Positions 14,626 to 39,038 of a DNA stretch of 41,114 nucleotides are shown here, piece after piece (the first letter of the stretch is position 1; each line of letters begins with the position of its first letter). The DNA comes from Candidatus Bipolaricaulota bacterium. Lineage in GTDB: Bacteria > Bipolaricaulota > Bipolaricaulia > UBA7950 > UBA9294. Made by a program: the position numbers and the translations under genes. The DNA is taken from assembly GCA_030603215.1 (NCBI GenBank), contig JAUVYF010000005.1, forward strand, positions 1-41,114. The letters are read 5' to 3'. The notes under the pieces are model-generated. The model was not told the origin of the DNA. It was given only the letters and a program-made list of their open reading frames with translations, and searched no databases.

Positions 14626-15624
14626 GTGGCCAAACCAAAGGTTGCGTTTTATTGGTGTGCCTCATGTGGAGGGTGTGAAGAGGCCGTCATTGACCTCAAC
14701 GAAGATCTGTTAAAGGTTGCGGACGCGGTGGACATCGTGCTGTGGCCGGTTGCGTTAGACTTCAAGCGCAAGGATATCGAGGCCCTGACCGATAACGAGA
14801 TCGCAGTGAGCTTCATTAATGGGGCAGTGAGGCTGGAAGAACAGCGGGAAATGGTTGAGCTGCTGAGGAAGAAGTCGCAGTTGGTCGTTGCTTTTGGCGC
14901 CTGTGCTTGTATGGGCGGCATTCCCGGCCTCGGGAACTTCTATTCCAGGGAGACAATCTTTCACAAGGCCTACACCGACACTCCCAGCGTGAAAAACCCG
15001 AGCGGCGTTCTCCCCCAACAGGCTACGACAGTCACTGAAGGCGAACTGACCTTGCCCAAGTTCTACGACACGGTGCAGACACTGGACCAAACCATCCCCG
15101 TAGATTACTACCTCCCTGGGTGCCCACCACCGCCAGACCTGATACTAAACGCGGTAAACGCCATTCTTGCCGGAGAGCTTCCCGACAAGGGAGCAGTCCT
15201 CGCACCGGAAAAGGCGCTGTGCGATACTTGTTCCCGCCTGGAGTCCAAACCGGATAAGCTGTCGATAAACGACATAAAGCGTCCGTGGGAGATCAAGATC
15301 GATCCGGAGAAGTGCTTCCTTACCCAAGGCTTGATCTGTCTCGGCCCGGCCACCCGGTCAGGGTGTGGAGAGACGTGCATCCGCGCCAATCAGCCATGCC
15401 GCGGTTGTTTCGGTCCCGTTGCTGGGGTTGCCGATCAGGGCGCGAAAGCCCTTTCCATGATCGCGTCCATCTTGGGCGTTGAGGGAGAGGAAGAGATGAG
15501 CGATGAACAGGTTCAACGGCTCGTAAATCGGATCGCCGATCCGGCAGGAACGTTCTACCGATACAGTCTACCAGCCTCTCTTCTTAGACGAAAGATGATA
15601 CAGGGTCTAGAAGGAGAAGAATGA
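14626..15624 (+). CDS. mvhG: Mvh-like (group 3c-like) soluble [NiFe]-hydrogenase small subunit
   Basis: A 332-residue cytoplasmic subunit without a Tat signal. The N-terminal domain carries the proximal cluster ligands in YWCASCGGCEEA (Cys11 and Cys14), GACACMGG (about 91-98) and LPGCPPPPD. The C-terminal third is cysteine-rich, with CDTC, a long CFLTQGLIC...CGETC stretch and CRGCFGPV, consistent with extra [4Fe-4S] clusters. It resembles MvhG of methanogens and related ferredoxin/heterodisulfide-linked hydrogenases. It starts at GTG 14626, with AGGGAGG 8 nt upstream, and overlaps the large-subunit gene by 4 nt. Its expected electron partner MvhD is encoded 15 kb downstream next to hdrA, so the two loci probably form one complex. 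Confidence 0.9.
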   Translation: MAKPKVAFYWCASCGGCEEAVIDLNEDLLKVADAVDIVLWPVALDFKRKDIEALTDNEIAVSFINGAVRLEEQREMVELLRKKSQLVVAFGACACMGGIPGLGNFYSRETIFHKAYTDTPSVKNPSGVLPQQATTVTEGELTLPKFYDTVQTLDQTIPVDYYLPGCPPPPDLILNAVNAILAGELPDKGAVLAPEKALCDTCSRLESKPDKLSINDIKRPWEIKIDPEKCFLTQGLICLGPATRSGCGETCIRANQPCRGCFGPVAGVADQGAKALSMIASILGVEGEEEMSDEQVQRLVNRIADPAGTFYRYSLPASLLRRKMIQGLEGEE

Positions 15625-24704: not shown

Positions 24705-24725
24705 CGTTTCCTCCTTACCGATACG

Positions 24726-24880: not shown

Positions 24881-26050
24881 ATGAAGATCCACGAGTACCA
24901 GGCAAAGGAGATCTTCGCGTCAGTCGGGATTCCAGTGCCAAGGGGAGAGGTAGCCGCTACTCCACAGGAAGCGCAACGGATCGCGGAGACCCTTGGCTCT
25001 CCAGTAATGGTGAAAGCCCAGGTGCATGCCGGAGGCCGTGGAAAAGCAGGCGGGATCAGGCGCGCCGAGACCCCTAAACAAGTCAACGAGGCGGCCAAGG
25101 ACATTCTTGCCAAACCACTAGTCACCCATCAGACTGGGCCGGGCGGAAAACGGGTCAATCGTGTTCTCGTAGAAAAGACCGTCAATATCGCTAATGAACT
25201 GTATATTGGCCTCGCCATCGATCGTAAGAGACGATCCTCCGCGATCATGGTAAGCTCGCGAGGAGGGGTAGAGATCGAGGAGATAGCACGCCAAGATCCC
25301 GAGGCGATCTTCACCGAGTGGATCGATCCCACGATCGGTCTCCCCGTATTCCAAGCCTACCGGCTGGCGAATTACCTCGGCCTCGATCAAGCGCAAACCC
25401 GTAAGGTAAGTTCACTTATTCAAGCCTTGTATCGTTTGTTTGCCGGTAAGGACTGCTCCTTGGTGGAGATCAATCCGCTGGTGATCGAACGCTCCGGAGA
25501 AGTGGTCGCCCTGGACGCCAAGGTAGATTTCGACGATAACGCTCTGTTCCGACACCCTGAGATCGCCGCACTACAGGACGAAAGCGAGGTCTCCCCATTG
25601 GAGCTTAAGGCGAAGGCGTTCAACCTAAACTATATCAAGCTTGATGGGAACGTAGGCTGCCTAGTCAACGGCGCTGGGTTGGCGATGGCAACCATGGATC
25701 TGATCGAACTGGTGGGCGCCTCCCCAGCCAACTTCCTTGACGTAGGTGGAGGAGCCGACGAGACGATGATCGAAAACGCTTTTTGTATCCTCCTCTCCGA
25801 CCCAGCGGTGGAAGCGGTGTTTATCAACATCTTCGGCGGAATCCTACGCTGTGACGCCCTGGCGCAAGGGATCGTCCGGGCGGCCGAAACGGTCACGATC
25901 GATCTTCCTGTTGTGATCCGACTCGAAGGAACTAACGTGAAAGAGGGGCGCAAGGTGCTCCGCCGATCCAGCTTTCACTTCTCCAGTGCCACCGACATGC
26001 AACAGGCGGCCGCGCTGGTGGCTGCGGCGGTAGAAGGAAGGCGCGCGTGA
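24881..26050 (+). CDS. sucC: succinyl-CoA synthetase (ADP-forming) beta subunit
   Basis: A 389-residue ATP-grasp subunit that binds nucleotide and succinate. The N-terminus [20 protein letters not shown] is canonical, [11 protein letters not shown] (near residue 50) belongs to the ATP-grasp domain, and the C-terminal CoA-ligase-type domain contains [10 protein letters not shown] and [10 protein letters not shown]. It has GAAGGAGG upstream and a promoter candidate about 30 nt before the predicted leader. It links succinate to succinyl-CoA, the substrate of the reductive carboxylation catalysed by Kor further down the operon. In the opposite direction it would make ATP. Confidence 0.96.
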
Positions 26051-26943
26051 GTATCCTAATCGATCAAACGACCAAGGCAATAGTTCAGGGGATCACCGGA
26101 AATGAAGGGCGGTTTCACACCTCACGGATGATCGATTATGGCACCAAGATCGTTGCTGGGGTGACCCCGGGAAAAGAAGGACAGACGGCAGAGGATGTCT
26201 TGGTGTACAACACCGTCTCCGCGGCCATGGCAGCGACAGGCGCCACGGCATCGATCATCTTCGTACCTTCAAGGTTTGCCGCTGACGCGATCATGGAGGC
26301 TGCAGAGGCCGGGATCAAGCTGGTGATCTGTATCACCGAGGGAATCCCTGTTCAAGATATGATCACGGTACGCCGATACCTCGACCGGCTCGGAACAATC
26401 CTGATTGGCCCTAACACGCCGGGGATCATTTCTCCGAACAAGTGCAAGCTAGGGATCATGGCGGGTTACATCCACCGGGAAGGGCCGGTCGGAGTGGTCT
26501 CCCGTAGCGGAACCCTCACCTACGAGGTTGTCCACCAACTGTCTCAGCTCGGAATTGGCCAATCCACTTGCGTTGGGATCGGCGGCGACCCAATCGGCGG
26601 ATTGTCGTTCACCGACCTTCTGATAAGGTTCGAGGAGGATCCGCAAACGCGGGGAATGGTCCTAATCGGAGAGATCGGCGGATCTGCCGAAGAGGAGGCA
26701 GCTGCCTATATCGCCGAGCGCATTAAGAAACCAGTTGTCGCCTTCGTCGCCGGAAGAACTGCCCCTCTGGGACGACGGATGGGTCATGCCGGCGCGATCA
26801 TCACTGGTGGATCGGGTACAGCTTCAGCTAAGATCGCGGCTCTCGCTAAGGCTGGGGTCACGGTCGTTGAGAGCCCAGCAAATGTCGGAGCAACGATGGC
26901 TAAGATCATCCGTCCAAATAATAGGGGGTTATTGATTGCATAA
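26047..26943 (+). CDS. sucD: succinyl-CoA synthetase alpha subunit
   Basis: A 298-residue subunit with the CoA-binding Rossmann domain ([20 protein letters not shown], near the N-terminus) and the phosphorylated active-site histidine in [16 protein letters not shown]. It starts at GTG 26047, overlapping the sucC stop by 4 nt. It is followed by a 127-nt gap before korC, the largest gap within the block apart from that before the lipid kinase. All expected motifs are present and the length is normal. Confidence 0.96.
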
Positions 26944-26980
26944 GGATTGATCCTCGTGTCGATCAGGAACGAAAGTCTCG

Positions 26981-26996
26981 ACAGGTTCCTACCTGT
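26981..26996. other. small inverted repeat before korC
   Basis: ACAGGT (26981-26986) and ACCTGT (26991-26996) form a 6-bp stem with a TCCT loop. It abuts the candidate -35 box of the korC promoter, so it could be an operator or a weak attenuator after sucD. Confidence 0.35.
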
Positions 26997-27024
26997 TGCA
27001 TATTGAAAATATTTATGGTAAAGT
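26996..27024 (+). promoter_or_regulatory. weak candidate promoter ahead of korC
   Basis: TTGCAT (26996-27001) and TAAAGT (27019-27024) are 17 nt apart in an AT-rich patch, with 3/6 and 4/6 matches. It might give separate expression of the kor-hdr-tfr genes, but read-through from sucCD is equally possible. Confidence 0.28.
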
Positions 27025-27070
27025 ACGGGGCGAATATCAAAAACCGGAGGTTCATTCTCACTATATAAGA

Positions 27071-27634
27071 ATGAGCGGCGCCTTGAGATCTGAGATACGC
27101 TTTGCTGGATTTGGTGGCCAAGGGATCATCTCTGCCGGGAAGATCACCGGACGAGCAGCAGCAATTTATGACGGGAAGGAAGTCGTGCTGATGCAGTCCT
27201 ATGGGCCAGAAGCGCGCGGTGGAGCGTGTAATGCCGACTTGGTCGTTGCCGATTCACCGATCGGTTATCCACGCATCAACCTTCCCAATCTCGTTGTCAT
27301 CATGTCTCAGGAGGCCTACGACAAGTACGGGCACACGATCAAGCCAAAAGGCACTCTGATCATCGACGAAGACTTGGTTGAGATCTCCGGAAAACCACCG
27401 GTAGAAAGCGTATACACGATCCCCGCCACCCGTATCGCCGATGGGCTTGGCAAGAGGATCGTAGCTAACGTAGTGATGCTTGGCGCTCTCACCGCAATCA
27501 CTGGAATTGTCGCCAAAGAAGCGATGCTTGAGGCTATCCTTTCTTCTGTTCCACCAAAGACGAAAGATCTAAACGGGAGTGCTTTCACCGCTGGCTACGA
27601 ACGGGGAAAAGGAGTGAAGAGTGCCGCAACCTAG
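27071..27634 (+). CDS. korC: 2-oxoacid:ferredoxin oxidoreductase gamma subunit
   Basis: A 187-residue subunit of the pyruvate/2-oxoglutarate ferredoxin oxidoreductase family. The motif RFAGFGGQGIISAGKITGRA (about 10-29) and QSYGPEARGGACNADLVV are diagnostic. I chose ATG 27071 because homology begins there. CGGAGG is present but about 20 nt upstream, so TTG 27083 or a longer form starting at TTG 26996 cannot be excluded. Its partners KorD, KorA and KorB are encoded 6 kb downstream, after the hdr and tfr genes, whereas these four genes are normally adjacent. Its 3' end overlaps hdrA by 14 nt. The substrate is taken as 2-oxoglutarate from the sucCD context. Confidence 0.9.
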   Translation: MSGALRSEIRFAGFGGQGIISAGKITGRAAAIYDGKEVVLMQSYGPEARGGACNADLVVADSPIGYPRINLPNLVVIMSQEAYDKYGHTIKPKGTLIIDEDLVEISGKPPVESVYTIPATRIADGLGKRIVANVVMLGALTAITGIVAKEAMLEAILSSVPPKTKDLNGSAFTAGYERGKGVKSAAT

Positions 27635-29579
27635 GATTGGGATTTTTGTCTGCCACTGTGGGTTAAACATCAAGAGAACCGTGGACACTCAAGCCATAAC
27701 CGAAGCACTCGGCGAGTATCCAGGGGTGGCCTTTGCCACCGATTACGACTACATGTGCTCCGATCCCGGACAGCGGTTGATCAAGGAGGCAATCACCGAA
27801 CAGCGGTTGACCGGAATCGTTATCGCGGCTTGTTCGCCAGCGATGCATGAGCCAACTTTCCGTCGAGCAGCAGAGGAAGCGGGGATGAACCCGTATCTGT
27901 GCGAGATGGCGAATATCCGCGAGCAGTGTAGTTGGGTGCACCAAGATCGTGAAGCGGCCACGAAGAAGGCGCTTCGAATCGTCAACACCATTATAGAGAA
28001 GGTGCGAGGAAACCACCCTCTGGAACCGGTAGAGATCGATCACGTGAACAAGTGCCTAGTCATCGGCGCTGGGATCGCCGGGATTCAGGCCGCACTGGAT
28101 GTTGCCGAGAGTGGGTTCGCCGTGATCCTGGTCGAAAAGGAGCCAACAATCGGCGGGCACATGGCCCAGCTCTCCGAGACCTTCCCTACCCTGGATTGCT
28201 CACAGTGTATACTTACCCCAAAGATGGTTGAGGTCTCCCGTCATCCGAACATTACTCTGCTCACCTACAGTGAGGTTGTCAATGTTTCAGGGTACGTGGG
28301 GAACTACACCGTGACCATTCGCAAGAACCCGACCTACGTCGATCCGGACAAGTGCAACCTGTGCGGTGACTGCGAAAATGTCTGTCCAGAGAGCACAGAG
28401 AGCGAGTTCGAACGTGGACTGGTACAACGCAAGGCAATCTACATCCCGTTCCGTCAGGCAATTCCCTCTTCCTATACCCTGGATGAGGAAACCTGCTTGG
28501 GCCTGAGGCCGCTCCGTTGCAACGAGTGCGCCAAGGTCTGCGACCCGAAGGCAATCGATTACGACATGCTCCCCGAGATCATCGAGGAGGAAGTAGCAGC
28601 GATCATCGTGGCCACCGGGTATGAGCTTCACCCAATCTCTTCCCTGGGAGAGTACGGGGCGGGTCTGATCCCCGACGTGATTGACGGCTTGCAGTTCGAA
28701 CGGCTCCTCTCCGCTTCTGGGCCAACCGGCGGCGAGGTGCGCCGCCCCTCCGACGGGAAGATACCCAAGAAAGTGGTCTTTGTCCAATGTGCCGGCTCGC
28801 GTGACCCGGAGCATCATAACGCCTACTGCTCGAAGATCTGCTGTATGTATACGTCCAAACACGCCCTTCTTTATCGCCATGTTGTCCCTGACGGAGAAGC
28901 GGTGATCTTCTATATCGATATCCGCGCTGGTGGTAAGGGGTACGAAGAGTTCGTGCAGCACGCAATAGAGGAGGAGCGAATTCTATATTTGCGCGGGAAG
29001 GTGTCAAAGATCTATCGCGAAGGAGATCATGTTATAGTATGGGGAGTGGATACCCTATCTAATCGACTGGTGGAGATCGAGGCTGACCTCGTTGTGTTGG
29101 CAATCTCGATCGATCCACACCCGTCAAACCCCATCCTCTCCAAGGTGCTCAAGATCAGCTGCGACGCAGAGGGTTTCTTTAAAGAAGCACACCCTAAGCT
29201 GCGCCCAGTAGAGAGCCTTACCGCGGGGATCTTTCTCGCTGGTGCAGGAGAGGGGCCAAAGGACATCCCTGAGGCTGTCTCACAGGGAAGTGGGGCAGCG
29301 GCAAAGGCAGTTACTCTCCTCGTGCAGGAGAAGCTGAGCCACTCCCCCGAGGTGGTAGATATCAATGAGAATATCTGCAGCGGCTGCGGAATCTGTGTGA
29401 ATATGTGTCCATACGCCGCCCTTGCGGTAAATGGGGGAGGAGTAGCGGAGGTGAACGAGGTTCTGTGCGAGGGTTGTGGAACGTGTGTTTCCGCTTGTCC
29501 CACAGGCGCAGCTCAACTGAAGAACATGACCACAAAACAATTGAATAACATGATCGAGGTGGCCTTGCGTGATGTCTGA
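27621..29579 (+). CDS. hdrA: HdrA-type flavin-based electron-bifurcating subunit
   Basis: A 652-residue cytoplasmic flavoprotein, the bifurcating core of heterodisulfide reductase-like complexes. The N-terminal domain starts GIFVCHCGLNI. The FAD-binding GAGIAG is at 149-154 and GGHMAQLSETFPTLDCSQC at 178-196. An inserted ferredoxin domain has Cys245-248-251-255 (CNLCGDCENVCP) and Cys300-303-307. A C-terminal ferredoxin has Cys586-589-592-596 and Cys616-619-622-626. It should split electron pairs from MvhD between ferredoxin and the HdrBC branch. It starts at GTG 27621, overlapping korC, and its end overlaps mvhD. The coupling of Kor and Hdr reading frames is striking in an organism with no visible coenzyme M/B genes. 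Confidence 0.94.
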   Translation: MPQPRIGIFVCHCGLNIKRTVDTQAITEALGEYPGVAFATDYDYMCSDPGQRLIKEAITEQRLTGIVIAACSPAMHEPTFRRAAEEAGMNPYLCEMANIREQCSWVHQDREAATKKALRIVNTIIEKVRGNHPLEPVEIDHVNKCLVIGAGIAGIQAALDVAESGFAVILVEKEPTIGGHMAQLSETFPTLDCSQCILTPKMVEVSRHPNITLLTYSEVVNVSGYVGNYTVTIRKNPTYVDPDKCNLCGDCENVCPESTESEFERGLVQRKAIYIPFRQAIPSSYTLDEETCLGLRPLRCNECAKVCDPKAIDYDMLPEIIEEEVAAIIVATGYELHPISSLGEYGAGLIPDVIDGLQFERLLSASGPTGGEVRRPSDGKIPKKVVFVQCAGSRDPEHHNAYCSKICCMYTSKHALLYRHVVPDGEAVIFYIDIRAGGKGYEEFVQHAIEEERILYLRGKVSKIYREGDHVIVWGVDTLSNRLVEIEADLVVLAISIDPHPSNPILSKVLKISCDAEGFFKEAHPKLRPVESLTAGIFLAGAGEGPKDIPEAVSQGSGAAAKAVTLLVQEKLSHSPEVVDINENICSGCGICVNMCPYAALAVNGGGVAEVNEVLCEGCGTCVSACPTGAAQLKNMTTKQLNNMIEVALRDV

Positions 29580-30027
29580 GCCGAAGAATAATGGGTTCGA
29601 GCCAAATATTATTGCTTTCCTCTGCCGCTGGTGTTCCTATGCTGGAGCGGATCTGGCCGGCGTAAGCCGGATGACTTACCCATCCAACATCATCCCGATG
29701 CGCGTCAACTGCTCGGGAAGGGTCGATGCTGAAATGATCATTAGAGCGTTCGAGAAGGGAGCGGATGGCGTGCTCATTGGGGGTTGTCACCCTGGAGATT
29801 GTCACTACGTCAACGGCAACTACAAAACGCGACGCCGCGTCCTGCTACTGAAGCGCGCCCTTGAACAGGTAGGGATCGATCCGAAGCGTCTGCACCTAGA
29901 ATGGATCAGTGCCAGCGAGGGGACGAAGTTTCAGCGTACGGTGACCAGTCTTACTGAGCGGATAAAGCAACTCGGGCCCAGCCCGGTAAAAAATGATCCA
30001 GCAAACCGGTGTTACCGGCCCAAGTGA
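29569..30027 (+). CDS. mvhD: MvhD-family [2Fe-2S] hydrogenase/Hdr linker
   Basis: A 152-residue protein that links an MvhAG hydrogenase to HdrA. Conserved blocks are FLCRWCSYAGADLAGVSR (Cys19 and Cys22), RVNCSGRVD (Cys48) and GADGVLIGGCHPGDCHY (Cys73 and Cys78). It starts at GTG 29569 or ATG 29572, overlapping hdrA by 11 or 8 nt. The mvhA and mvhG genes are not next to it but are present at 14626-17135, which supports a full MvhAGD-HdrABC assembly. It could instead accept electrons from a formate dehydrogenase or NADH module encoded elsewhere. Confidence 0.93.
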   Translation: MMSEPKNNGFEPNIIAFLCRWCSYAGADLAGVSRMTYPSNIIPMRVNCSGRVDAEMIIRAFEKGADGVLIGGCHPGDCHYVNGNYKTRRRVLLLKRALEQVGIDPKRLHLEWISASEGTKFQRTVTSLTERIKQLGPSPVKNDPANRCYRPK

Positions 30028-30041
30028 AGGGAGGAGCCTAA

Positions 30042-30440
30042 TTGGCGATGAAGCAATTAGCCCGAAGTGATACGTTGCGCGAGAAGGTGGAGGAACTCTC
30101 GGGACAGAACGTCTTTGCCTGCTATCAGTGCGGGATGTGTTCGGCTGGGTGTCCCCTAAGCGAGGAGATGGATCTCCTCCCCCATCAAGTGGTCCGTGGG
30201 CTACAGCTGGAGGACTGGACGGTGATGGAGTCAAACACCATGTGGATCTGCGCAAGCTGTCTAACCTGCGAGGCCCGATGTCCTCACGGGGTCGATCTAG
30301 CATGTGTGATGGAGGCGATGCGTCAGCTCTATTTACGAAAGAGCCTCGACCATATAGCGATTGACAAACTTACAACAGAAGAGATCGCGCGACTTCCGCA
30401 GATTGCTCTTGTAGCAAGCTTCCGCAAGAAGACGGGGTGA
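30042..30440 (+). CDS. hdrC: HdrC-like 4Fe-4S subunit
   Basis: A 132-residue iron-sulfur protein with two [4Fe-4S] motifs: Cys27-30-33-37 (CYQCGMCSAGCP) and Cys70-73-76-80 (CASCLTCEARCP). It should wire HdrA to HdrB. Two starts are possible: TTG 30042, 5 nt after GGGAGGAG, and ATG 30048, 11 nt after it; I kept the TTG. There is no membrane segment, so it is the soluble HdrC type and not the DsrM/HdrE-linked form. It lies in the order hdrA-mvhD-hdrC-hdrB. Confidence 0.92.
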   Translation: MAMKQLARSDTLREKVEELSGQNVFACYQCGMCSAGCPLSEEMDLLPHQVVRGLQLEDWTVMESNTMWICASCLTCEARCPHGVDLACVMEAMRQLYLRKSLDHIAIDKLTTEEIARLPQIALVASFRKKTG

Positions 30441-30444
30441 ACAG

Positions 30445-31329
30445 ATGAAAGGGATTGCCTACTTTCCAGGGTGTAGCTTGAAGGAGACAGCAAAGGATTT
30501 CGAGATCTCCGCGATCGCAGTGATGGATGCGCTTGGGATCCCCCTAATCGAACTTAAGCGGTGGAACTGCTGCGGAACCGTCTTCTCTCTCACCTCTGAC
30601 GATCTGATGCATCATATCGCTTCTGTCCGGAACCTGATCCGCGCCCAGGAGATGGAATCGCCTGAAGTCGTCGTTCTCTGCTCGATGTGCTTCAACACCC
30701 TCAAGCGCGTGAGCCTACGCGTAAACAGGGACGAGGAATCACTCACCAAGATCAACGCCTTTATGAACAAGGAACTCGACTATGCGGGGGAAGTTGAGGT
30801 AAAGCACCTCCTTGAGATCCTGCGTGACCGAATAGGCTGGGAACAGGTCTCAGAAAAGGTAATCCATCCCCTCGATGGAGTTAGCATTGCCGCGTACTAT
30901 GGGTGCACGCTCGTGCGTCCACACGAGGTGGGGATCGACGATACCGAGACTCCTACGGTGCTTCAGGAGATGATTGAATCACTCGGGGCCACCGCCGTGT
31001 CGTTCCCTTTTCAGACTGAGTGCTGTGGAAGCTACCAAATCGTCGATCGCCGTGACCTTGTGATCAACCGTTCCTATCGGATCCTGAGTTCGGCGCAGCG
31101 CGCCGGAGCGCAGGTACTAATCACCGCTTGCCCACTCTGTCAGTACAACCTCGACGAAGCGCAGACTGAACTAGCCGAAAGACTCCCTGACTACACCTCG
31201 ATCCCAGTCCTCTACTTCACTCAGGCTATCGCTTTAGCCCTGGGAGTCGAGGCTGGAACCATCCCAGACCTGCTCGCGGAGAGCCTCGTCGGGCAAGAGA
31301 TTCCGAAAAAAGAGGAAACTACTAGATGA
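30445..31329 (+). CDS. hdrB: HdrB-like subunit with two cysteine-rich CCG domains
   Basis: A 294-residue protein. In methanogens HdrB reduces the CoM-S-S-CoB disulfide at two unusual non-cubane [4Fe-4S] clusters. Both CCG motifs are complete here: Cys10, 42, 43, 79, 82 and Cys154, 193, 194, 229, 232. It begins 4 nt after the hdrC stop and overlaps tfrB by 4 nt (ATGA). In methanogen thiol:fumarate reductase, an HdrB-like domain is fused to the iron-sulfur subunit TfrB; here the same two modules are separate neighbouring genes. I infer that it passes electrons to TfrB, or reduces an unknown disulfide. Confidence 0.9.
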   Translation: MKGIAYFPGCSLKETAKDFEISAIAVMDALGIPLIELKRWNCCGTVFSLTSDDLMHHIASVRNLIRAQEMESPEVVVLCSMCFNTLKRVSLRVNRDEESLTKINAFMNKELDYAGEVEVKHLLEILRDRIGWEQVSEKVIHPLDGVSIAAYYGCTLVRPHEVGIDDTETPTVLQEMIESLGATAVSFPFQTECCGSYQIVDRRDLVINRSYRILSSAQRAGAQVLITACPLCQYNLDEAQTELAERLPDYTSIPVLYFTQAIALALGVEAGTIPDLLAESLVGQEIPKKEETTR

Positions 31330-32012
31330 AACAGAACAAGATGATTAAAATCTTCATCATGGGGAAAGCGTACCAGGTTCCCGCTGGCCTCACCATCATG
31401 GATGCAATGGAGTACGCTGGTTATCGGTTCATCCGTGGAGCAGGCTGCCGTTCGGGGTTCTGTGGAGCCTGCGCCACAATCTACCGAAAAGCCGGGGAGT
31501 ACCGATTCGAGTTTGCTCTCGCCTGCCAAGAGATGGTCGAAGAAGGAATACACCTGGCCCAACTCCCGTTCACTCCAGCACCGCGAGCGGGCTACATCCT
31601 TGATGATCTTGATGCCAGTGAGAACGTTCTACTGCAATACTACCCCGAGATCGCGTGCTGCGTCTCCTGCAACACATGCACCAAGGCGTGTCCACAGGAT
31701 ATTGAGGTGATGGATTACATCCAGGCCGCCCTACGGGGAGATATCAAGCAGGTGACGGAACTGTCGTTCGACTGTATCCAATGTGGCCTGTGCTCCATGC
31801 GCTGCCCAGCCGACATCAAGCACTACCACGTTGCTCAATTGGCCCGCAGGCTCTACGCAAAGAGCGCCTCGCCAACCCCACAGCACCTGAAGGACCGGAT
31901 CAAAGAGATCGAAGCTGGGAAGTTCAGCGACGAACTTGAGGAACTGACGACCATGAACCTGGACGAGTTAAAAGAACGCTACGCTGCGCGACAAATCGAA
32001 CCAACCACCTAG
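31326..32012 (+). CDS. tfrB: fumarate reductase iron-sulfur subunit (TfrB/SdhB-like, soluble)
   Basis: A 228-residue iron-sulfur subunit. An N-terminal [2Fe-2S] domain has Cys41, 46, 49 and 67 (CRSGFCGAC). The C-terminal domain has two motifs: Cys112-115-118-122 (CVSCNTCTKACP) and Cys150-153-156-160 (CIQCGLCSMRCP). In ordinary SdhB/FrdB the last site lacks a cysteine and binds [3Fe-4S] close to the quinone; here it has all four, so a second [4Fe-4S] is expected. No membrane-anchor gene follows. Both facts point to a soluble, quinone-independent enzyme that takes electrons from HdrBC. The ATG overlaps the hdrB stop. Confidence 0.9.
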   Translation: MKQNKMIKIFIMGKAYQVPAGLTIMDAMEYAGYRFIRGAGCRSGFCGACATIYRKAGEYRFEFALACQEMVEEGIHLAQLPFTPAPRAGYILDDLDASENVLLQYYPEIACCVSCNTCTKACPQDIEVMDYIQAALRGDIKQVTELSFDCIQCGLCSMRCPADIKHYHVAQLARRLYAKSASPTPQHLKDRIKEIEAGKFSDELEELTTMNLDELKERYAARQIEPTT

Positions 32013-32023
32013 GGAGGGGTAAA

Positions 32024-33694
32024 GTGACTCAAGCGAAACTTCAGGCAGAGCTCGCCGGAGGCTACCCTGCTTACATGCGGGAGTCGATCGAGAAGGTCAA
32101 GGCAACGCGGACGCAGCTCCTCAAGTCCGGCCCGCCAGCGGCCATGAACGCCGAAGCGCGGGACAAGATATTAGACAAGTTCCATCCAGACTATAAACCA
32201 GACAAGAAGCGCGCGCTGGCGATCGGCCCCTCCGCCGGGGCGATGATGCCCCACGAGGTCGCCGACGTTCTCGAGGCGCACCCCTTGATCGATCCTGCTT
32301 CGATTGACTTGAGCAAGGTGGATATCGAAGTTGATGTCTTGATTATAGGCGGTGGAGGGGCAGCAAGTGTAGCCGCCCTGTTCGCCCGTGAACAAGGGAT
32401 CGAAACCGACAAGATCCTCATAGCTACCAAGCTCCGTCACGGCGACTGCAATTCGATCATGGCCCAGGGAGGGATTCAGGCCGCTGACCGGCCGACTGAC
32501 TCCCCGGCGATCCACTACCTTGATGTCCTCGGAGGGGGGCACTACACCAATAAACCGGCGCTCGTCAGGGCACTTGTCAACGACGGGCCGATGATCATCA
32601 ACTGGCATGAGAACCTCGGGGTGACGTACGACAAGGTGAACGGGGATTATCTGGAGGCGCATGGCGGTGGAACCTCTCGGATGCGCATGCACTCAGCCAA
32701 GGACTACACAGGAATGGAACTCATGCGTGTGTTGCGCGATGAAGTACGTAATCTGGAGATTCCGGTCCTCGAGTTCGCTCCTGCGGTGGAACTACTCTTA
32801 GACAAGGATGGTCATGCCGCGGGGGCAGTCCTCTTTAACCTTGAGACCAACGAATATATGGTGGTAAGAGCGAACGCCACCATCTTGGCAACAGGCGGAT
32901 TCGGGCGGCTACACATCCAGGGATTTCCGACGACGAACCACTATGGCGCAACGGCGGACGGGTTGGTCCTTGCTTACCGAGCCGGGGCAAGGCTGATCGA
33001 CATGGACTCGGTCCAGTACCATCCAACAGGGGTAGCCTATCCAGCCGCGATATTGGGACAGCTTGCCACTGAGAAGTTGCGTAACCAAGGTGCAATGCCG
33101 GTAAACGCGCATGGTGAGGCGTTTGTCTATCCCTTGGAGCCGCGCGACGTAGAGGCGGCAGCAATTATCCGTGAGTGCTACGAGCGCAATAATGGTATCA
33201 CTACTCCGAGTGAGATTCGCGGAGTATGGCTCGATACACCGATGATTGAAGAGATCCACGGAAAAGGGACGATCAAGGAACGTCTAGCAGCGATGTGGAT
33301 GATGTGGAACCGCCACGGAATCGATATCACAGTGGATCCGGCTTTGGTCTTTCCCACCCTGCACTACCAAAACGGCGGGGTTGAGATCGGCGCGGAAGCC
33401 CAGACCGATGTTCCAGGCCTGTTCGCCGGCGGCGAAGCGGGAGGTGGTATACACGGAAAGAATCGACTGATGGGAAACTCCCTCCTTGACTACAACGTCT
33501 TTGGTCGGCGAGCGGGGATTTCCGCCGCCCGTTGGGCAAAGAAACACACGGTGAAAGCGCTCTCACTCAAGCACGTGACGAACTATGAGAAGATGCTGAA
33601 GAAGGCAGGACTTAAGACTGACAGGAAGACACCGTTAATTCTCCCGGATTACCGGAATCAGGCAGTGTTGGCCCATTCACTCGACATCATGTAG
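32024..33694 (+). CDS. tfrA: fumarate reductase flavoprotein subunit (TfrA/FrdA-like)
   Basis: A 556-residue FAD enzyme expected to reduce fumarate to succinate. The FAD-binding GGGGAAS is at 109-115, after an unusual N-terminal extension of about 100 residues. Active-site residues match FrdA/SdhA: His333 in QYHPTG, Arg353 in EKLRNQGA, His447 in HYQNGG and Arg481 in HGKNRLMGNSL. Where classical enzymes have the histidine that binds FAD covalently (HTVAAQGG), this protein has Asn143 (NSIMAQGG), so FAD is probably non-covalent, as described for methanogen thiol:fumarate reductase. It starts at GTG 32024, with GGGAGGGG upstream, 11 nt after tfrB. L-aspartate oxidase was considered but fits the context less well. 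Confidence 0.9.
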   Translation: MTQAKLQAELAGGYPAYMRESIEKVKATRTQLLKSGPPAAMNAEARDKILDKFHPDYKPDKKRALAIGPSAGAMMPHEVADVLEAHPLIDPASIDLSKVDIEVDVLIIGGGGAASVAALFAREQGIETDKILIATKLRHGDCNSIMAQGGIQAADRPTDSPAIHYLDVLGGGHYTNKPALVRALVNDGPMIINWHENLGVTYDKVNGDYLEAHGGGTSRMRMHSAKDYTGMELMRVLRDEVRNLEIPVLEFAPAVELLLDKDGHAAGAVLFNLETNEYMVVRANATILATGGFGRLHIQGFPTTNHYGATADGLVLAYRAGARLIDMDSVQYHPTGVAYPAAILGQLATEKLRNQGAMPVNAHGEAFVYPLEPRDVEAAAIIRECYERNNGITTPSEIRGVWLDTPMIEEIHGKGTIKERLAAMWMMWNRHGIDITVDPALVFPTLHYQNGGVEIGAEAQTDVPGLFAGGEAGGGIHGKNRLMGNSLLDYNVFGRRAGISAARWAKKHTVKALSLKHVTNYEKMLKKAGLKTDRKTPLILPDYRNQAVLAHSLDIM

Positions 33695-33709
33695 TTGTTA
33701 GGAGGACCA

Positions 33710-34000
33710 ATGGCTGAAGTGCTCACCAAGCGGTGGAAGACAAAGCACGGCTACCTATACATTCAAGACGATGAGTGCAAAGGGTGTGGATTCTGCATCG
33801 AGTTCTGTCCGAAGCAGGTTCTGGAGGAGTCTGACTACTTCAACGCCAAGGGATTCCACCCTCCACTGGTTAAAGACGCGCTCGCTTGTGTCAATTGCAC
33901 TTTCTGTCAGCTGATTTGCCCTGACTTCGCCATCTGGAGCATAAAGGACCCTGTAGCGTCGAACCTTGAGCCCCACGAGGAGGAACAAAATGCCAGTTAA
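33710..34000 (+). CDS. korD: 2-oxoglutarate:ferredoxin oxidoreductase delta (ferredoxin) subunit
   Basis: A 96-residue ferredoxin-like subunit with two [4Fe-4S] motifs, CKGCGFCIEFCP and CVNCTFCQLICP. It passes electrons between free ferredoxin and the thiamine site in KorB. I chose ATG 33710, with AGGAGG 4 nt upstream; an in-frame TTG at 33695 lies directly after the tfrA stop. Its 3' end overlaps korA by 11 nt. Its place straight after the fumarate reductase gene suggests that both enzymes may share a local ferredoxin pool. Confidence 0.93.
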   Translation: MAEVLTKRWKTKHGYLYIQDDECKGCGFCIEFCPKQVLEESDYFNAKGFHPPLVKDALACVNCTFCQLICPDFAIWSIKDPVASNLEPHEEEQNAS

Positions 34001-35150
34001 TGGGATTCTCTCCGGCGTGCACTTCATGAATGGAGACGAAGCCTGCGCCGAAGGGGCGATCGCTGCCGGGTGTCGCCTGTTTGCAGGTTATCCGATAACC
34101 CCCCAGTCGGAGATCGCCGAGCGCATGTCTTATCGCCTTCCGCAGGTCGGCGGGGTCTTTATCCAGATGGAGGATGAGATTGCGTCGATGGCGGCCGTCC
34201 TTGGGGGGGCGTGGGGCGGAATGAAGGCCATGTCCGCCACCTCCGGCCCCGGCTTCTCGCTGATGATGGAGAATCTGGGATTGGGGATGATGACTGAAAC
34301 CCCATGCGTTGTAATTAACATCCAGCGGGGGGGGCCAAGCACCGGTCTTCCTACCCTTGTCGGACAAGCAGACATGATGCAGGCGCGCTGGGGGTCGCAC
34401 GGCGACTACGGAGTGATCGCCCTTTCTCCATCCTCGCCACAGGAGGCATTCGAGCTTACCATAAGAGCGTTTAATCTTGCCGAAACCTATCGTCTCCCTG
34501 TTTTTGTGATGTCCGACGAGATGGTTGGGCATATGTACGAGCGTGTGGTGATCGACCCTGAGCGGATCGAGACTGTGGAGCGTCGCAAGCCAGCGAAACC
34601 ACCCGAGAAATTCCTCCTCTACGAACCGGGCCCAGACCTCGTTCCTCAAGGAATGCCTCTCTTCGGCGATGGCTACCGCGTACATATCACCGGCCTCACC
34701 CACGACGAGCGTGGTTACCCAGTGATCGACGCAGAGACGCAAAATAGGACGGTGACCCGCCTCAAAGAGAAGATTGCCCATAATGCCGCCCAGATTATCT
34801 CCTACGAAGAACGCGATCTCGATTCGGCCGATATCGTGATCATTACCTACGGCATCGCTGCTCGCACCTCTCTCGGAGCGCTGGAACTGGCAAGAAAGCA
34901 AGGTTTGAAGGTGGGTATGCTTCGCCTGACCACCGTTTGGCCACTTCCCACAACAAAGATCATCGAACTCGCGGAGAGGATAGCGGGGTTCGTTGTCCCG
35001 GAGATCAACCTTGGTCAAGTTGTCCTTGAGGTGGAGCGGGTCGTCGCTGGGAAGGTACCCGTGCGCTGCGTCCCTCATGCCGGCGGTGATATTCACCAAC
35101 CGGAGCAGATTCTGCACGCGATTGAGGAGGTGCTAAAGGATGCCGCTTAA
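33990..35150 (+). CDS. korA: 2-oxoglutarate:ferredoxin oxidoreductase alpha subunit
   Basis: A 386-residue subunit with the pyrimidine-binding half of the thiamine diphosphate site. Visible blocks are GDEACAEGAIAAGCRLFAGY, PITPQSEIAERM, SATSGPGFSLMMENLG and IQRGGPSTGLPT, all typical of KorA/VorB-type subunits. I chose ATG 33990, with GAGGAGG upstream, inside the end of korD. Its own 3' end overlaps korB by 11 nt. With KorB, KorC and KorD it should catalyse succinyl-CoA + CO2 + 2 reduced ferredoxin to 2-oxoglutarate + CoA, or the reverse. A branched-chain substrate cannot be excluded on sequence alone. Confidence 0.92.
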   Translation: MPVNGILSGVHFMNGDEACAEGAIAAGCRLFAGYPITPQSEIAERMSYRLPQVGGVFIQMEDEIASMAAVLGGAWGGMKAMSATSGPGFSLMMENLGLGMMTETPCVVINIQRGGPSTGLPTLVGQADMMQARWGSHGDYGVIALSPSSPQEAFELTIRAFNLAETYRLPVFVMSDEMVGHMYERVVIDPERIETVERRKPAKPPEKFLLYEPGPDLVPQGMPLFGDGYRVHITGLTHDERGYPVIDAETQNRTVTRLKEKIAHNAAQIISYEERDLDSADIVIITYGIAARTSLGALELARKQGLKVGMLRLTTVWPLPTTKIIELAERIAGFVVPEINLGQVVLEVERVVAGKVPVRCVPHAGGDIHQPEQILHAIEEVLKDAA

Positions 35151-36009
35151 GGCAAAAGAGCTTCCTGCTCCTGAGATCCTCCGCGCAGAGAGTCACCCCA
35201 TGAAACGCTACCTGCGTACCGATCGCCTGCCACACATCTGGTGTTCAGCTTGTGGGTTGGGGACAGCACTCTCCTGTTTCGTTTATGCCCTCGACGAGAT
35301 GCAACTTGATCTGGACGATGTAGGTGTAGTCTCGGGAATCGGCTGCACCGGGAGGGTCGCCGGCTACGTCAATCTCGATTCCTATCACACAACGCACGGC
35401 CGGGCGATCCCGTTTGCCAGCGGGCTGAAGGTCGCCAAACCAAAGAAGAAGGTTATCGTATTCAGCGGCGACGGAGATCTGTTCGCTATAGGCGGGAACC
35501 ACTTCATCCACGCAGCGCGGCGAAACATCGACATTACCGTGATCTGTGTCAACAACTTCACCTACGGAATGACCGGCGGGCAGTTCGGTCCAACGACTCC
35601 ACTGGGGTCACGCGGAACGACCGCACCTTACGGAAACTACGAGAACCCGTTCAACCTTCCTTATGTCGCTGCTTCCTGCGGTGCGGTTTATGTTGCGCGT
35701 TGGACATCCCTACACGCGCGGCGGTTAAAGGAGGCGATGGTGGAGGCGATCGCCAAGCCAGGCTTCACCTTCGTGGAGATCATCTCTCCGTGCCCGACCA
35801 ACTATGGTCGGCGCAATCGGCTTGGCGAAGGGATCGATGAGCTTCGCTACTACGCGGAGAAATCCGTCATTCGGCACGGCGCCAACCCTAAGGATGCTGA
35901 CCTCTACCCAGGAAGTGAGATCCTCATCGGAAAGTTCGTTGAGCTTGAGCGTCCCACTTTCCTCGAGGTTTACGAAGAGCGGGTCATGAAGAAAAACTCA
36001 GGTCGATAA
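35140..36009 (+). CDS. korB: 2-oxoglutarate:ferredoxin oxidoreductase beta subunit
   Basis: A 289-residue thiamine diphosphate-binding subunit. The motifs IWCSACGLGT (about 32-41), SGIGCTGRVAGY, FSGDGDLFAIGGNHFIHA (the GDG...N thiamine-Mg site) and NNFTYGMTGGQFGPTTPLGS are typical of KorB. The first cysteine motif is CSAC rather than the more common CPGC. ATG 35140 overlaps the korA stop, which suggests coupled translation. It ends 16 nt before the fumarase start chosen here, keeping the rTCA-type genes on one transcript. Confidence 0.93.
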   Translation: MPLKAKELPAPEILRAESHPMKRYLRTDRLPHIWCSACGLGTALSCFVYALDEMQLDLDDVGVVSGIGCTGRVAGYVNLDSYHTTHGRAIPFASGLKVAKPKKKVIVFSGDGDLFAIGGNHFIHAARRNIDITVICVNNFTYGMTGGQFGPTTPLGSRGTTAPYGNYENPFNLPYVAASCGAVYVARWTSLHARRLKEAMVEAIAKPGFTFVEIISPCPTNYGRRNRLGEGIDELRYYAEKSVIRHGANPKDADLYPGSEILIGKFVELERPTFLEVYEERVMKKNSGR

Positions 36010-36025
36010 TAGAGAGGTGACAAGA

Positions 36026-36889
36026 TTGCAAAATGAGAAACTAAAGAGCGCCCTAGTAACAGCTCTCAAGAAGGCAGCAACAATTCTCCCAACCGATGTT
36101 GTTAACGCGCTAAAGAGCGCAGAAGCTACAGAAAGTTCGAAACTTGCAAAGGAACAGCTTAGGGCGATCTTGCGCAATATTGAGATCGCCCGCGAGGGAT
36201 CAATTCCCATGTGTCAAGATACTGGAATTCAGACCTTTTTTGTCGAGGCCGGGGTAGAGAGCCCTTATCTTGCGAGCTTGAAATCCGTGATCGCGGAAGC
36301 CGTTGCTGAAGCAACAGTGGCGATTCCTCTCCGCCCGAACACGGTCCATCCATTCACCGGAGAGAACCCCGGAGACAACCTGGGCCGATTCATGCCATAT
36401 ATCAACTGGGACCTGGTCGACGGAGACGAGGTATCGATCACTCTACTCCCGAAGGGAGGAGGGAGCGAGAATATGTGCGCTCTCAAGATGCTCCCTCCCG
36501 GTGTAGGAATGAAAGGGATCAAGGAGTTCGTCGTCGATCACGTCATCTCCTGCCAAGGGAAACCCTGTCCGCCAACGATCATTGGTGTGGGGATCGGCGG
36601 CGGAGCGGATATCTCAATGAAGCTCGGAAAACGCGCGATCCTGCGCGAGATCGGAAGTCGGCATCCAGAAGCCGCAGTTGCCGCGTTAGAGGAGGAGCTT
36701 CTCGAATTGATTAACATGAGTGGTGTGGGACCAATGGGTGTGGGTGGCAGAGCGACTTCTCTGGCCGTCCACGTGGAGTACGCATACCGGCATCCGGCCT
36801 CCCTACCCCTGGGAATCCTGGTCCAGTGCTGGGCCGACCGGCGAGCGAGGATTCACATCGCTGCGGACGACTCAATCGAGGTGAATTAA
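36026..36889 (+). CDS. fumarate hydratase class I, alpha subunit
   Basis: A 287-residue subunit of the oxygen-sensitive [4Fe-4S] fumarase. Cluster ligands are likely Cys63 (PMCQDTG), Cys151 (SENMCALK) and Cys176 (VISCQGKPCPP). I chose TTG 36026, because AGAGAGGTGA stands 5 nt upstream; GTG 36017 overlaps that site and would add three residues. It interconverts malate and fumarate, between the malic enzyme and the fumarate reductase of this cluster. The two-subunit form is common in anaerobes and archaea. The closely related tartrate dehydratase was considered but the context favours fumarase. Confidence 0.92.
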   Translation: MQNEKLKSALVTALKKAATILPTDVVNALKSAEATESSKLAKEQLRAILRNIEIAREGSIPMCQDTGIQTFFVEAGVESPYLASLKSVIAEAVAEATVAIPLRPNTVHPFTGENPGDNLGRFMPYINWDLVDGDEVSITLLPKGGGSENMCALKMLPPGVGMKGIKEFVVDHVISCQGKPCPPTIIGVGIGGGADISMKLGKRAILREIGSRHPEAAVAALEEELLELINMSGVGPMGVGGRATSLAVHVEYAYRHPASLPLGILVQCWADRRARIHIAADDSIEVN

Positions 36890-36890
36890 G

Positions 36891-37490
36891 ATGGAACGAG
36901 AGATAACGCTCCCAGCCGCCGAGGAGATGGTGCGCCAGTTTCGTGTAGGAGACATTCTGTACCTCACCGGGAAGCTCTTCACCGCCCGTGATGAGGCTCA
37001 CCACCTGATGCTCGATCGCAAGACGAAAGGTGAGGAGATCCCGTTTGATCCAGCACAGATGGCCTTATTCCACTGCGGGCCGGTGGTAAAAAAAGAGGGG
37101 ACTGGCTGGCGGGTGATTGCGGCAGGACCGACCACGAGTATCCGCATGGAACTCTTTGAGGACCGTTTTCTCGCTGATTTCGGGACGAAGATAGTTATCG
37201 GAAAGGGCGGAATGGGCGACAAGACACAAGCGGTCCTTGAAAAAACCGGAGCGGTTTACACCCACTACACGGGTGGTGCCGGTGCACTGGCAGCAAAGGC
37301 GATCGAACGAATCGAGGAGGTCTTATGGCTTGATGAGTTGGGAATGCCGGAGGCTGTCTGGATCTTTCAGGTGAACCGTTTCGGCCCGCTCCTCGTTACT
37401 ATGGACAGCGCTGGCGGAAACCTGTACAGCGAGCTTGCGAAGACGATCGATCGCAACAAAGAGAAGATCCACGCACGGATCCAAGAATAG
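36891..37490 (+). CDS. fumarate hydratase class I, beta subunit
   Basis: A 199-residue C-terminal-type subunit of class I fumarase. The substrate-binding blocks FHCGPVVKK, AGPTTSIRME and VIGKGGMGDKT are present. It begins one base after the alpha-subunit stop and completes the enzyme. No anomalies were seen; the length is usual for a separate beta subunit. Confidence 0.93.
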   Translation: MEREITLPAAEEMVRQFRVGDILYLTGKLFTARDEAHHLMLDRKTKGEEIPFDPAQMALFHCGPVVKKEGTGWRVIAAGPTTSIRMELFEDRFLADFGTKIVIGKGGMGDKTQAVLEKTGAVYTHYTGGAGALAAKAIERIEEVLWLDELGMPEAVWIFQVNRFGPLLVTMDSAGGNLYSELAKTIDRNKEKIHARIQE

Positions 37491-37536
37491 TATCGATCTT
37501 TAGTACTCGATCATAATGAATAAAGGAGGATTTAAT

Positions 37537-38907
37537 ATGGGTGAAGAAAAGCAGCTCTCCGTGGAGGAACGACTAGCGAAGGCGAAGATCCCCGGAAAGA
37601 AGGCCCCTTCCTGGCATGCTTTTTACCGCGGAAAGATAGAGACAACGCTCAAGTGCGCGGTAACCGAATTGGACGACTTTGGGATTTGGTACACACCTGG
37701 TGTTGCTGCCCCTTGTCGAGAGATTGAACAAGACAAGAACAAAGTGTTCGACTACACAAACAAAGCAAACACCATCGCCGTTGTCTCTGACGGGTCACGC
37801 GTCCTTGGCCTGGGGAATATCGGGCCGCAGGCAGGTCTTCCCGTGATGGAAGGAAAGGCTCTTTTGTTTAAATACCTTGGTGGTGTCGGGGCGTTTCCCA
37901 TCATGCTTGACACACAGGATCCCGCTGAAATTGTGCAAGCCGTCAAGTGGATGGCTCCGGGATTCGGCGGGATCAATCTGGAGGATTTCGCGAACCCGAA
38001 GTGCTTCTATATCCTCGATCGATTGCGCGAAGAGCTTGATATACCGGTGTGGCACGACGATCAACAGGGCACCGCATCGATTACCCTCGCAGGCGTTATC
38101 AATGCGCTAAGAGTCGTAGGCAAGGATATAAATCAAGCTACTTACGCCATTATCGGAACAGGAGCCGCGAACATTGCCTTTGTTCGCATTCTCCTGAGCG
38201 CCGGAGTACCGGCGGGAAACCTGATCCTTGTCGACAGTAGGGGAATCCTCCACTCCAACCGTGAGGACCTAGATAAAAACAAGGCACAGAATCCATACAA
38301 GTGGAAATACGCTTTGGAAACGAATGCCGAAGGCCGCGTCGGAGACATGGCCAGAGCAATCGATGGCGCTGATGTGCTAATCGCCGCCTCTAAGCCCGGA
38401 CCAGGTACAATCAAGAAAGAATGGCTGCGCTCGATGAACAAGGATGCGATCGTATTCGTCATGGCTAACCCGGTCCCTGAGATCTGGCCGTGGGAGGCAA
38501 AGGAAGCGGGAGTAAGAATCGTGGCAACCGGTCGTTCTGACTTCTCCAATCAGGTGAATAACTCAATCGGCTTTCCCGGGATCTTCCGGGGGACACTTGA
38601 TGTACGCGCGCAAACGATCACCGACGAAATGGCAATTGCTGCTTCGCATTCCATTGCGGAAACGGCCCAGGCAAAAGGTATCCACGATGAATATATCGTC
38701 CCCACCATGATGGAGACAGATGTATTTATCAACGAGGCAGTCGCCGTTGGACTGAAGGCAATCGAACAGGGAATTGCGCGAAGATTGCTTACCGCGGATC
38801 AGTTGCGCCGCGAAGCGGAACAGAAGATCCATCATGCACAACAAGAGACAAAAATCCTGATGAATGCCGGACACATTGCACCACCGCCATTGAGCTCAGA
38901 CAAATGA
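37537..38907 (+). CDS. NAD(P)-dependent malic enzyme
   Basis: A 456-residue oxidoreductase that links malate with pyruvate and CO2. Catalytic Tyr52 lies in YTPGVAAP and Lys107 in PVMEGKALLFK. Metal ligands are in INLEDFANP and WHDDQQGTA, and the dinucleotide fold is GTGAANIAF. It is the short bacterial form without a phosphotransacetylase-like tail. I chose ATG 37537, because AGGAGG stands 7 nt upstream; the in-frame ATG at 37516 precedes that site. It closes the carbon block: run reductively it would give malate for fumarase, run oxidatively it would release pyruvate. NAD or NADP preference cannot be assigned. Confidence 0.93.
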   Translation: MGEEKQLSVEERLAKAKIPGKKAPSWHAFYRGKIETTLKCAVTELDDFGIWYTPGVAAPCREIEQDKNKVFDYTNKANTIAVVSDGSRVLGLGNIGPQAGLPVMEGKALLFKYLGGVGAFPIMLDTQDPAEIVQAVKWMAPGFGGINLEDFANPKCFYILDRLREELDIPVWHDDQQGTASITLAGVINALRVVGKDINQATYAIIGTGAANIAFVRILLSAGVPAGNLILVDSRGILHSNREDLDKNKAQNPYKWKYALETNAEGRVGDMARAIDGADVLIAASKPGPGTIKKEWLRSMNKDAIVFVMANPVPEIWPWEAKEAGVRIVATGRSDFSNQVNNSIGFPGIFRGTLDVRAQTITDEMAIAASHSIAETAQAKGIHDEYIVPTMMETDVFINEAVAVGLKAIEQGIARRLLTADQLRREAEQKIHHAQQETKILMNAGHIAPPPLSSDK

Positions 38908-39001
38908 CACAATGATGAACAGTTTTCTCTCTAGATAGAGACGCTGTCCTGTTCTTATTGATAGACGGGACATGATATTTCCCATAACTCAATCTCAAGG
39001 C

Positions 39002-39031: not shown

Positions 39032-39038
39032 CGATTTC

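Follow-up and report, generated by a model that had tools for sequence, protein, structure and literature searches.

The window analysed here is a stretch of 41,114 nucleotides from a Candidatus Bipolaricaulota bacterium (assembly GCA_030603215.1, contig JAUVYF010000005.1, positions 1 to 41,114 of the forward strand), in which genes for an iron-sulfur subunit and a flavoprotein, here TfrB and TfrA, directly follow hdrA, mvhD, hdrC and hdrB. We consider it likely that TfrAB reduces the substrate in a soluble, cytoplasmic HdrABC-MvhAGD-TfrAB complex, which would bifurcate electrons from H2 to fumarate and ferredoxin. The sequence contains the subunits, their metal ligands, a near-intact fumarate-reductase active site from which the FAD-binding His is gone, and a gene set that is conserved in relatives; from these we infer complex formation, H2 input, bifurcation and direction. 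On balance, we also lean towards a broader proposition, that soluble, H2-driven bifurcating fumarate reductases are widespread in bacteria and archaea and would feed ferredoxin to a co-encoded 2-oxoglutarate synthase (KOR), so that two difficult reductive steps of this arm of the tricarboxylic acid (TCA) cycle would offset each other's cost with neither quinones nor a membrane involved.

Residues of the two subunits

Both open reading frames are confirmed at the positions given by a first-pass annotation made from the sequence alone. The features on which the argument turns are as follows.

31326..32012, +: tfrB-like iron-sulfur subunit, 228 aa, with an N-terminal [2Fe-2S] domain and an HdrC-like domain for two [4Fe-4S] clusters
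31659..31691, +: first CxxCxxCxxxCP of TfrB, C112-C122 (C112xxC115xxC118xxxC122P)
31773..31805, +: second, complete CxxCxxCxxxCP of TfrB, C150-C160 (C150xxC153xxC156xxxC160P), in the place of the FrdB [3Fe-4S] motif
32024..33694, +: tfrA-like flavoprotein, 556 aa, GTG start, with FAD_binding_2 at residues 104-487 and a conserved N-terminal extension (1-100)
32450..32452, +: codon of TfrA Asn143, at the position of the covalent-FAD His of FrdA/SdhA
32660-32665: TfrA His213-Gly214, with Gly at the position of FrdA Phe117 and NadB Glu121
33143..33145, +: codon of TfrA Arg374, equivalent of the catalytic-acid Arg of FrdA

As the first-pass annotation had noticed, N143 aligns with the FAD His of E. 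coli FrdA (His45; FrdA residues are Met-numbered throughout) and of SdhA, and it is Asn in all 80 TfrA homologues from named contigs. TfrA H333, R353, R374, H447 and R481 align with FrdA H233, R249, R288, H356 and R391; H333 is kept in 79 of the 80 homologues (the remaining one reads X), and each of the other four in 80/80. The earlier observation that H333, R353, H447 and R481 are retained thus stands, with one correction. We take FrdA R288 to be the catalytic-acid arginine, making R374 its equivalent in TfrA and R353 another conserved arginine. At Gly214, all 28 family rows of the tree described below have Gly where nine NadB-clade rows have Glu and the others Phe, which points to a changed substrate pocket in the TfrA family.

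The AlphaFold model of TfrA (pLDDT 83.7, pTM 0.86) is weak, with pLDDT under 50, at residues 169-175 and 479-485, the latter around R481. Its nearest fold is the Shewanella flavocytochrome c fumarate reductase (Z 36.0, rmsd 2.4, 387 aligned), followed by E. coli quinol:fumarate reductase (QFR; Z 34.4, rmsd 4.0, 425 aligned); comparison with aspartate oxidase gives Z 29.1 and rmsd 2.8 over 377 aligned. Ahead of the FAD domain, residues 1-100 (32024-32323) form a conserved helical extension that is missing from E. coli FrdA, SdhA and NadB, and in which R29, H54, P55 and D56 are invariant (alignment A3). Searching Pfam with these residues returned 0 matches at E up to 1, and a PDB sequence search at the same limit listed 11 sequences; the three under 0.001 are long RecA chains, and no stretch passed alone. 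The extension could be a dock for TfrB or for the Hdr part.

In TfrB, the complete motif reported at the [3Fe-4S] position is indeed present: in the alignment with E. coli FrdB, which reads CTFVGYC there, the extra ligand is C153. Of 74 aligned homologues, 73-74 keep the eight [4Fe-4S] cysteines and 72-73 the four [2Fe-2S] ones, the rest being unaligned and 0 substituted; C111 lies outside the CxxCxxCxxxCP motif. The first part of the predicted structure (pLDDT 86.1, pTM 0.72) pairs with NuoG/HydA-type [2Fe-2S] domains (Z 9.7, rmsd 1.9, 73 aligned) and the second with HdrC (Z 11.5, rmsd 2.2, 87 aligned). FrdB and SdhB are not among the 50 rows listed in this fold comparison, which says nothing against kinship. 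A domain search found no CCG (HdrB) half in the 228 residues of TfrB, hdrB being a gene of its own.

The first-pass annotation had taken the missing [3Fe-4S] site and the missing FAD His as two independent signs of a soluble, quinone-free enzyme. That argument fails, since the 8-methylmenaquinol:fumarate reductase (MFR) of Wolinella has both and uses quinol (PMC2680327). Nor is Asn at the FAD-His position specific: 4 of the 9 NadB-clade rows share it. The two changes are therefore insufficient alone to identify quinone-free enzymes. By analogy, the missing FAD His suggests fumarate reduction over succinate oxidation, which is a different reading from freedom from quinones. The quinone-free character itself is probably right, on other grounds, namely gene context and the missing quinone and anchor families.

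Family placement

In a 60-row tree (midpoint root, bootstrap not fully settled; truncated or broken rows L103, L136, L138, L128 and L172 left out), TfrA lies inside a clade of 28 rows with support 100/100 and a stem of 1.94. This clade is separate from those of NadB (9 rows, 99/89), SdhA/FrdA (11 rows, 100/97) and methanogen TfrA (7 rows, 100/100), the last represented by proteins passing NCBIfam NF004900. Clustering with L-aspartate oxidases, which the first-pass annotation had named as a refuting outcome, was looked for in the tree and not seen. Among the NCBIfam models, methanogen TfrA scores best with TfrA (309, cut-off 718), and NadB gives 258 (453) and SdhA/FrdA 247 (567). The MFR SdhA model gives 167 bits with TfrA (cut-off 1100), and the MFR SdhE model 163 bits with HdrB (cut-off 500). 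A GGC motif present in the seven methanogen TfrA rows with data is missing from the window TfrA.

Membership of known families was considered on this basis. TfrAB falls outside the methanogen thiol:fumarate reductases, given 309 versus 718 bits, no HdrB fusion and a separate clade; the likeness to them in the first-pass annotation holds for features, not for membership. L-aspartate oxidase (NadB) is rejected because Gly214 replaces Glu121, which we take to be a substrate-binding residue, and because TfrA lies outside the NadB clade. The classical quinone-dependent succinate:quinone reductases (SQR) and QFR of types A-D are rejected on C153 and N143; in addition, no match to the Sdh_cyt anchor family was found in the 87%-complete window genome. 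For the E-type MFR/succinate:quinone oxidoreductases, the second [4Fe-4S] cluster and the HdrB-like subunit fit, but the SdhA model cut-off of 1100 bits is missed. Features of HdrABC-MvhD bifurcating complexes are present, namely full-length HdrA with FAD and iron-sulfur domains, MvhD, two-CCG HdrB and HdrC. An electron-input module is encoded with them: mvhA is found in 32 of 80 named loci, and in the window about 10 kb upstream.

The gene set and its recurrence

On one strand (+), the gene order is sucC-sucD-korC-hdrA-mvhD-hdrC-hdrB-tfrB-tfrA-korD-korA-korB-fumA-fumB-malic enzyme, with a gap of 11 bases from tfrB to tfrA.

24881..26050, +: sucC
26047..26943, +: sucD
26996..27634, +: korC, 2-oxoacid:ferredoxin oxidoreductase gamma
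27621..29579, +: hdrA, 652 aa, match to 5odc_A
29569..30027, +: mvhD/FlpD
30042..30440, +: hdrC
30445..31329, +: hdrB, with the two CCG cysteine sets intact; its last 4 bases are shared with tfrB
33695..34000, +: korD, delta (ferredoxin) subunit
33966..35150, +: korA, alpha (open reading frame as listed; the true start may be downstream)
35140..36009, +: korB, beta
36017..36889, +: fumarase alpha (fumA)
36891..37490, +: fumarase beta (fumB)
37516..38907, +: malic enzyme
14626..15624, +: mvhG-like [NiFe] hydrogenase small subunit, displaced from the site that it has in relatives (between mvhD and hdrC)
15621..17135, +: mvhA-like [NiFe] hydrogenase large subunit (5odc_F, E 1.4e-112)

Residues 1-651 of HdrA match HdrA of the solved HdrABC-MvhAGD complex (5odc_A) with E 6.8e-212, and both CCG cysteine sets of HdrB are kept in 62-63 of 63 loci. 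The region 24500-39100 contains 6 promoter-like sites where 7.3 are expected, and 17 terminator-like sites where the expectation is 12.3 (sd 4.3); on these counts neither end of the transcript can be placed. Near the hydrogenase genes and hyp genes of the window lies a Complex-I/Fpo-like cluster (3798-11745, -), adjoined by an NAD-binding and Fer4_22 pair resembling sulfhydrogenase beta/gamma (12252-14158, -).

The 80 named loci are the top-ranking ones among 238 confirmed places, and many of their contigs are short. In these 80, tfrB is present in 75, hdrB in 63, hdrC in 61, hdrA in 60, mvhD in 57, korA in 46, mvhA in 32 and mvhG in 30. Where both flanks extend for at least 4.5 kb (43 loci), hdrA is found in 40, hdrB and hdrC in 39 each and mvhD in 38; the other genes are found there less often (korA 29, mvhA 22, sucC and malic enzyme 19 each, fumarase alpha 15). 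In 73/80 named loci, fewer than 200 bases separate the end of tfrB from the tfrA match downstream. Four of the seven exceptions start within 40 bases of tfrA, one (L041) has a 100-base N run just upstream, and in the remaining two (L075, L103) tfrB is present and the spacing rule is unmet. Across the named loci gene order shifts between lineages and set membership is constant. In relatives mvhGA lies between mvhD and hdrC, and a [NiFe] hydrogenase large-subunit match is found 3.3-4.1 kb from tfrA in at least 17 of 25 TfrA-bearing genomes.

Where mvhGA was not found, candidate input modules are an NAD-binding and Fer4_22 pair (L053, 3959-7855) and an FrhB-type protein (L070, 2403-4753). Differing input modules beside hdr suggest a modular complex.

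By record title, the carriers are Bipolaricaulota, Chloroflexota, Thermoplasmata, Bathyarchaeota, Culexmicrobium, Methanofastidiosum and Mnemosynella, with single bins titled Acidobacteria and Gammaproteobacteria; the nearest named loci are titled Candidatus Bipolaricaulota/Acetothermia or have no phylum in the title. The contig fits its bin: identity of its phosphoglycerate mutase is 77-82% with the enzymes of three genomes from the same genus, and 81% with that of one genome from another genus of the family.

A plasmid collection contributes a homologue from Ilyobacter polytropus with 57% identity and the checked residues conserved, in the order aspartase (aspartate ammonia-lyase)-hdrB-hdrC-hdrA-mvhD-three redox genes-tfrB-tfrA. 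For this organism it is reported that cytochromes were not detected, that fumarate is fermented and that succinate is not used (PMC3035301). More distant copies (46-48%) in the same collection come from Cupriavidus and Paraburkholderia. One such copy was examined, a TfrA/TfrB pair (46%/33%) on the megaplasmid of Cupriavidus metallidurans CH34 (L177, 11297-13596), and no hdr match was found near it in the stretch taken. Partner and substrate may differ in this species, which we take to be an aerobe.

Quinones, anchors and carbon pathway

Quinone and anchor families were sought in 60 related genomes, 25 of which count as TfrA-bearing (over 600 bits). The MqnA/D family (PF02621) was found in 0/60, and MenD over its cut-off likewise in 0/60, with matches below the cut-off in 16. 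Sdh_cyt (PF01127) occurs in five of the 60, in none of the 25 TfrA-bearing genomes and not in the window genome, FrdC/FrdD families not being part of the search. The UbiA family is present in 19 of the 60 and was not found in 19 of the 25 TfrA-bearing genomes, the window genome included. A simple hydropathy scan, which does not cover amphipathic helices, found no hydrophobic anchor. Together with gene context, the missing PF02621, over-cut-off MenD and Sdh_cyt in the 25 TfrA-bearing genomes make the quinone-free reading probable.

In the window genome, the genes for the ATP-citrate lyase subunits and isocitrate dehydrogenase stand side by side, and the sole citrate-synthase-family match is the ATP-citrate lyase. 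This gene row fits a reductive TCA arm, as judged from gene content. The phylum Bipolaricaulota is often described as using the Wood-Ljungdahl pathway. At L119 (7429-11918, -), the row of ATP-citrate lyase subunits and NADP isocitrate dehydrogenase lies behind an IclR-type regulator gene.

Proposed mechanism and alternatives

In the complex that we propose, electron pairs from H2 would enter at MvhAG and pass through MvhD to the HdrA flavin; in other lineages NADH-type or F420-type modules may deliver them to MvhD instead. Bifurcation would take place at the HdrA flavin. One branch would run by way of HdrC, HdrB and then the clusters of TfrB to the putatively non-covalent FAD of TfrA, where fumarate would be reduced to succinate, and the other from the HdrA flavin to ferredoxin. 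KOR could then spend the reduced ferredoxin in carboxylating succinyl-CoA to 2-oxoglutarate, so that the path from pyruvate or malate through fumarate, succinate and succinyl-CoA to 2-oxoglutarate would form one coupled reductive arm with no quinone. For 2 H2 + fumarate + Fd, potentials of +33, -414 and -500 mV give about -70 kJ/mol at a ferredoxin potential of -500 mV. We favour the direction of fumarate reduction because non-covalent FAD goes with lost succinate oxidation (PMC2680327), and because ATP-citrate lyase and isocitrate dehydrogenase are encoded with no other citrate-synthase-family match. The homologous cluster behind aspartase in the fumarate-fermenting Ilyobacter polytropus is further support for the proposal.

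Several observations weigh against this proposal. There is no hdr gene in 2 of the 43 well-flanked loci (L041, L104), both of which contain 100-base N runs. In the window, mvhGA is about 10 kb distant from the hdr genes. TfrA was not found in the three other searched genomes of the genus (G001-G003), so that either the gene has been lost or gained patchily in the genus or the bins are incomplete. Some relatives may make quinone, since among the 25 TfrA-bearing genomes a UbiA-family gene is present in 6 and a MenD match below the cut-off in 8. The window genome is 87% complete, making its own absences suggestive only. Finally, with Gly214 in place of the Phe of fumarate reductases and succinate dehydrogenases or the Glu of NadB, the substrate is inferred from context only.

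The same complex might run in reverse as a succinate dehydrogenase. Electrons of succinate and of reduced ferredoxin would then be confurcated to form H2 or reduce NAD, in the fermentation of peptides and glutamate via KOR and SucCD. We regard this as rather unlikely, even if the operon would suit a route from glutamate through 2-oxoglutarate and malate to pyruvate equally well. Some carriers are from groups regarded as peptide fermenters. Such genes in Culexarchaeia have been read oxidatively (PMC9723716), but superfamily variants with non-covalent FAD have lost succinate oxidation (PMC2680327), the reverse reaction would cost about +70 kJ/mol under standard conditions, and the window genome has ATP-citrate lyase.

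It is improbable that TfrAB is a thiol-driven fumarate reductase as in methanogens, with HdrB oxidizing a thiol pair and passing electrons to TfrB and TfrA, and HdrA dispensable. The near-universal retention of both CCG sets in HdrB and the top rank of the methanogen TfrA model would agree with a thiol donor, but the score of 309 is far below the cut-off, TfrA lies outside the methanogen clade and has no GGC motif, TfrB has no CCG half, and hdrA and mvhD travel with tfrBA. Equally improbable is a different unsaturated acid as substrate, or an oxidase of the aspartate-oxidase kind. Gly214 in place of Phe or Glu, the very long stem branch and the Asn shared with 4 of the 9 NadB-clade rows speak for it; set against these are the retention of the remaining examined active-site residues, the lack of NadB Glu121, the position outside the NadB clade, and the company of fumarase, SucCD and malic enzyme or, in Ilyobacter, aspartase. 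An E-type, membrane-associated quinol:fumarate reductase with HdrB as its SdhE anchor is very improbable: MFR also has a second [4Fe-4S] cluster and non-covalent FAD (PMC2680327) and HdrB matches its SdhE model (163 bits, below the cut-off), but HdrA, HdrC and MvhD are in the operon, neither PF02621 nor over-cut-off MenD occurs in the 60 genomes, the hydropathy scan (blind to amphipathic helices) gave no anchor, and TfrA reaches 167 of the 1100 bits needed on the MFR model.

If the H2-driven bifurcating fumarate reductase is real, it would explain fumarate reduction in anaerobes without quinones or cytochromes, and fumarate would join the acceptors of Hdr-type bifurcation, tied to ferredoxin-dependent carbon fixation. 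It may also fill a gap in Bipolaricaulota, as a closed Acetothermia genome of this phylum is reported to have no SDH/FRD annotated (PMC6092417). Ilyobacter polytropus, a cultured carrier of a homologous cluster, makes the proposal testable.

Comparison with known systems

An Hdr-linked bifurcating fumarate reductase has already been proposed: the 'succinate operon' of Pseudoclostridium thermosuccinogenes was put forward as encoding a Flx-Hdr-linked, ferredoxin-coupled enzyme (PMC7282089). It resembles the window in uniting fumarase, an Hdr bifurcation module and a two-gene fumarate reductase in one operon, with a proposed coupling of fumarate to ferredoxin. It differs in having Flx as NADH input rather than the MvhAG hydrogenase, and no KOR or SucCD in the operon as described; the two flavoproteins are likened by description only, not by sequence. 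In the open-licence literature searched, no paper was found that describes the H2-type gene set as encoding a fumarate reductase or that reports how widely it is spread, and both seem to be undescribed there.

Two archaeal reports come close. In Culexarchaeia, an Ehe cluster with SdhA and HdrA2B2C2 was read as coupling the oxidation of CO or succinate to H2 formation rather than as bifurcating fumarate reduction (PMC9723716); a member of the present family from Culexmicrobium (L093) likewise adjoins hdrA, hdrC and hdrB. For an MSBL1 archaeon, a contig that carries hdrABC together with succinate dehydrogenase subunits was mentioned without a bifurcating fumarate-reductase reading (PMC4725937).

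Wolinella MFR (SdhABE) shares a second [4Fe-4S] cluster, which in SdhB replaces [3Fe-4S], an HdrB-like third subunit and non-covalent FAD, with Ala86 in place of His. It oxidizes quinol and shows neither succinate oxidation nor CoM-SH/CoB-SH oxidation, and its periplasmic (Tat) location, quinol donor and three-gene sdhABE operon are its own (PMC2680327).

Methanogen TfrAB (NCBIfam NF004900/NF004898) also combines a flavoprotein without the FAD His with an iron-sulfur subunit and an HdrB-like partner. It differs in its separate clade, its GGC motif and a TfrB model of 488 positions that includes the HdrB-like part, and we know of no HdrA or MvhD partners for it. The closest parallel to the Hdr part is the methanogen HdrABC-MvhAGD complex (5ODC), with HdrA matched over residues 1-651 of 652, a two-CCG HdrB, HdrC, MvhD and MvhAG; here the acceptor end would be TfrAB, not the CoM-S-S-CoB site alone. 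A precedent for such an exchange is the acetogen MetVF-HdrABC-MvhD, in which the Hdr-MvhD module is joined to another reductase that replaces the heterodisulfide, in that case a methylene-THF reductase rather than a fumarate reductase (PMC7325909, PMC5861303).

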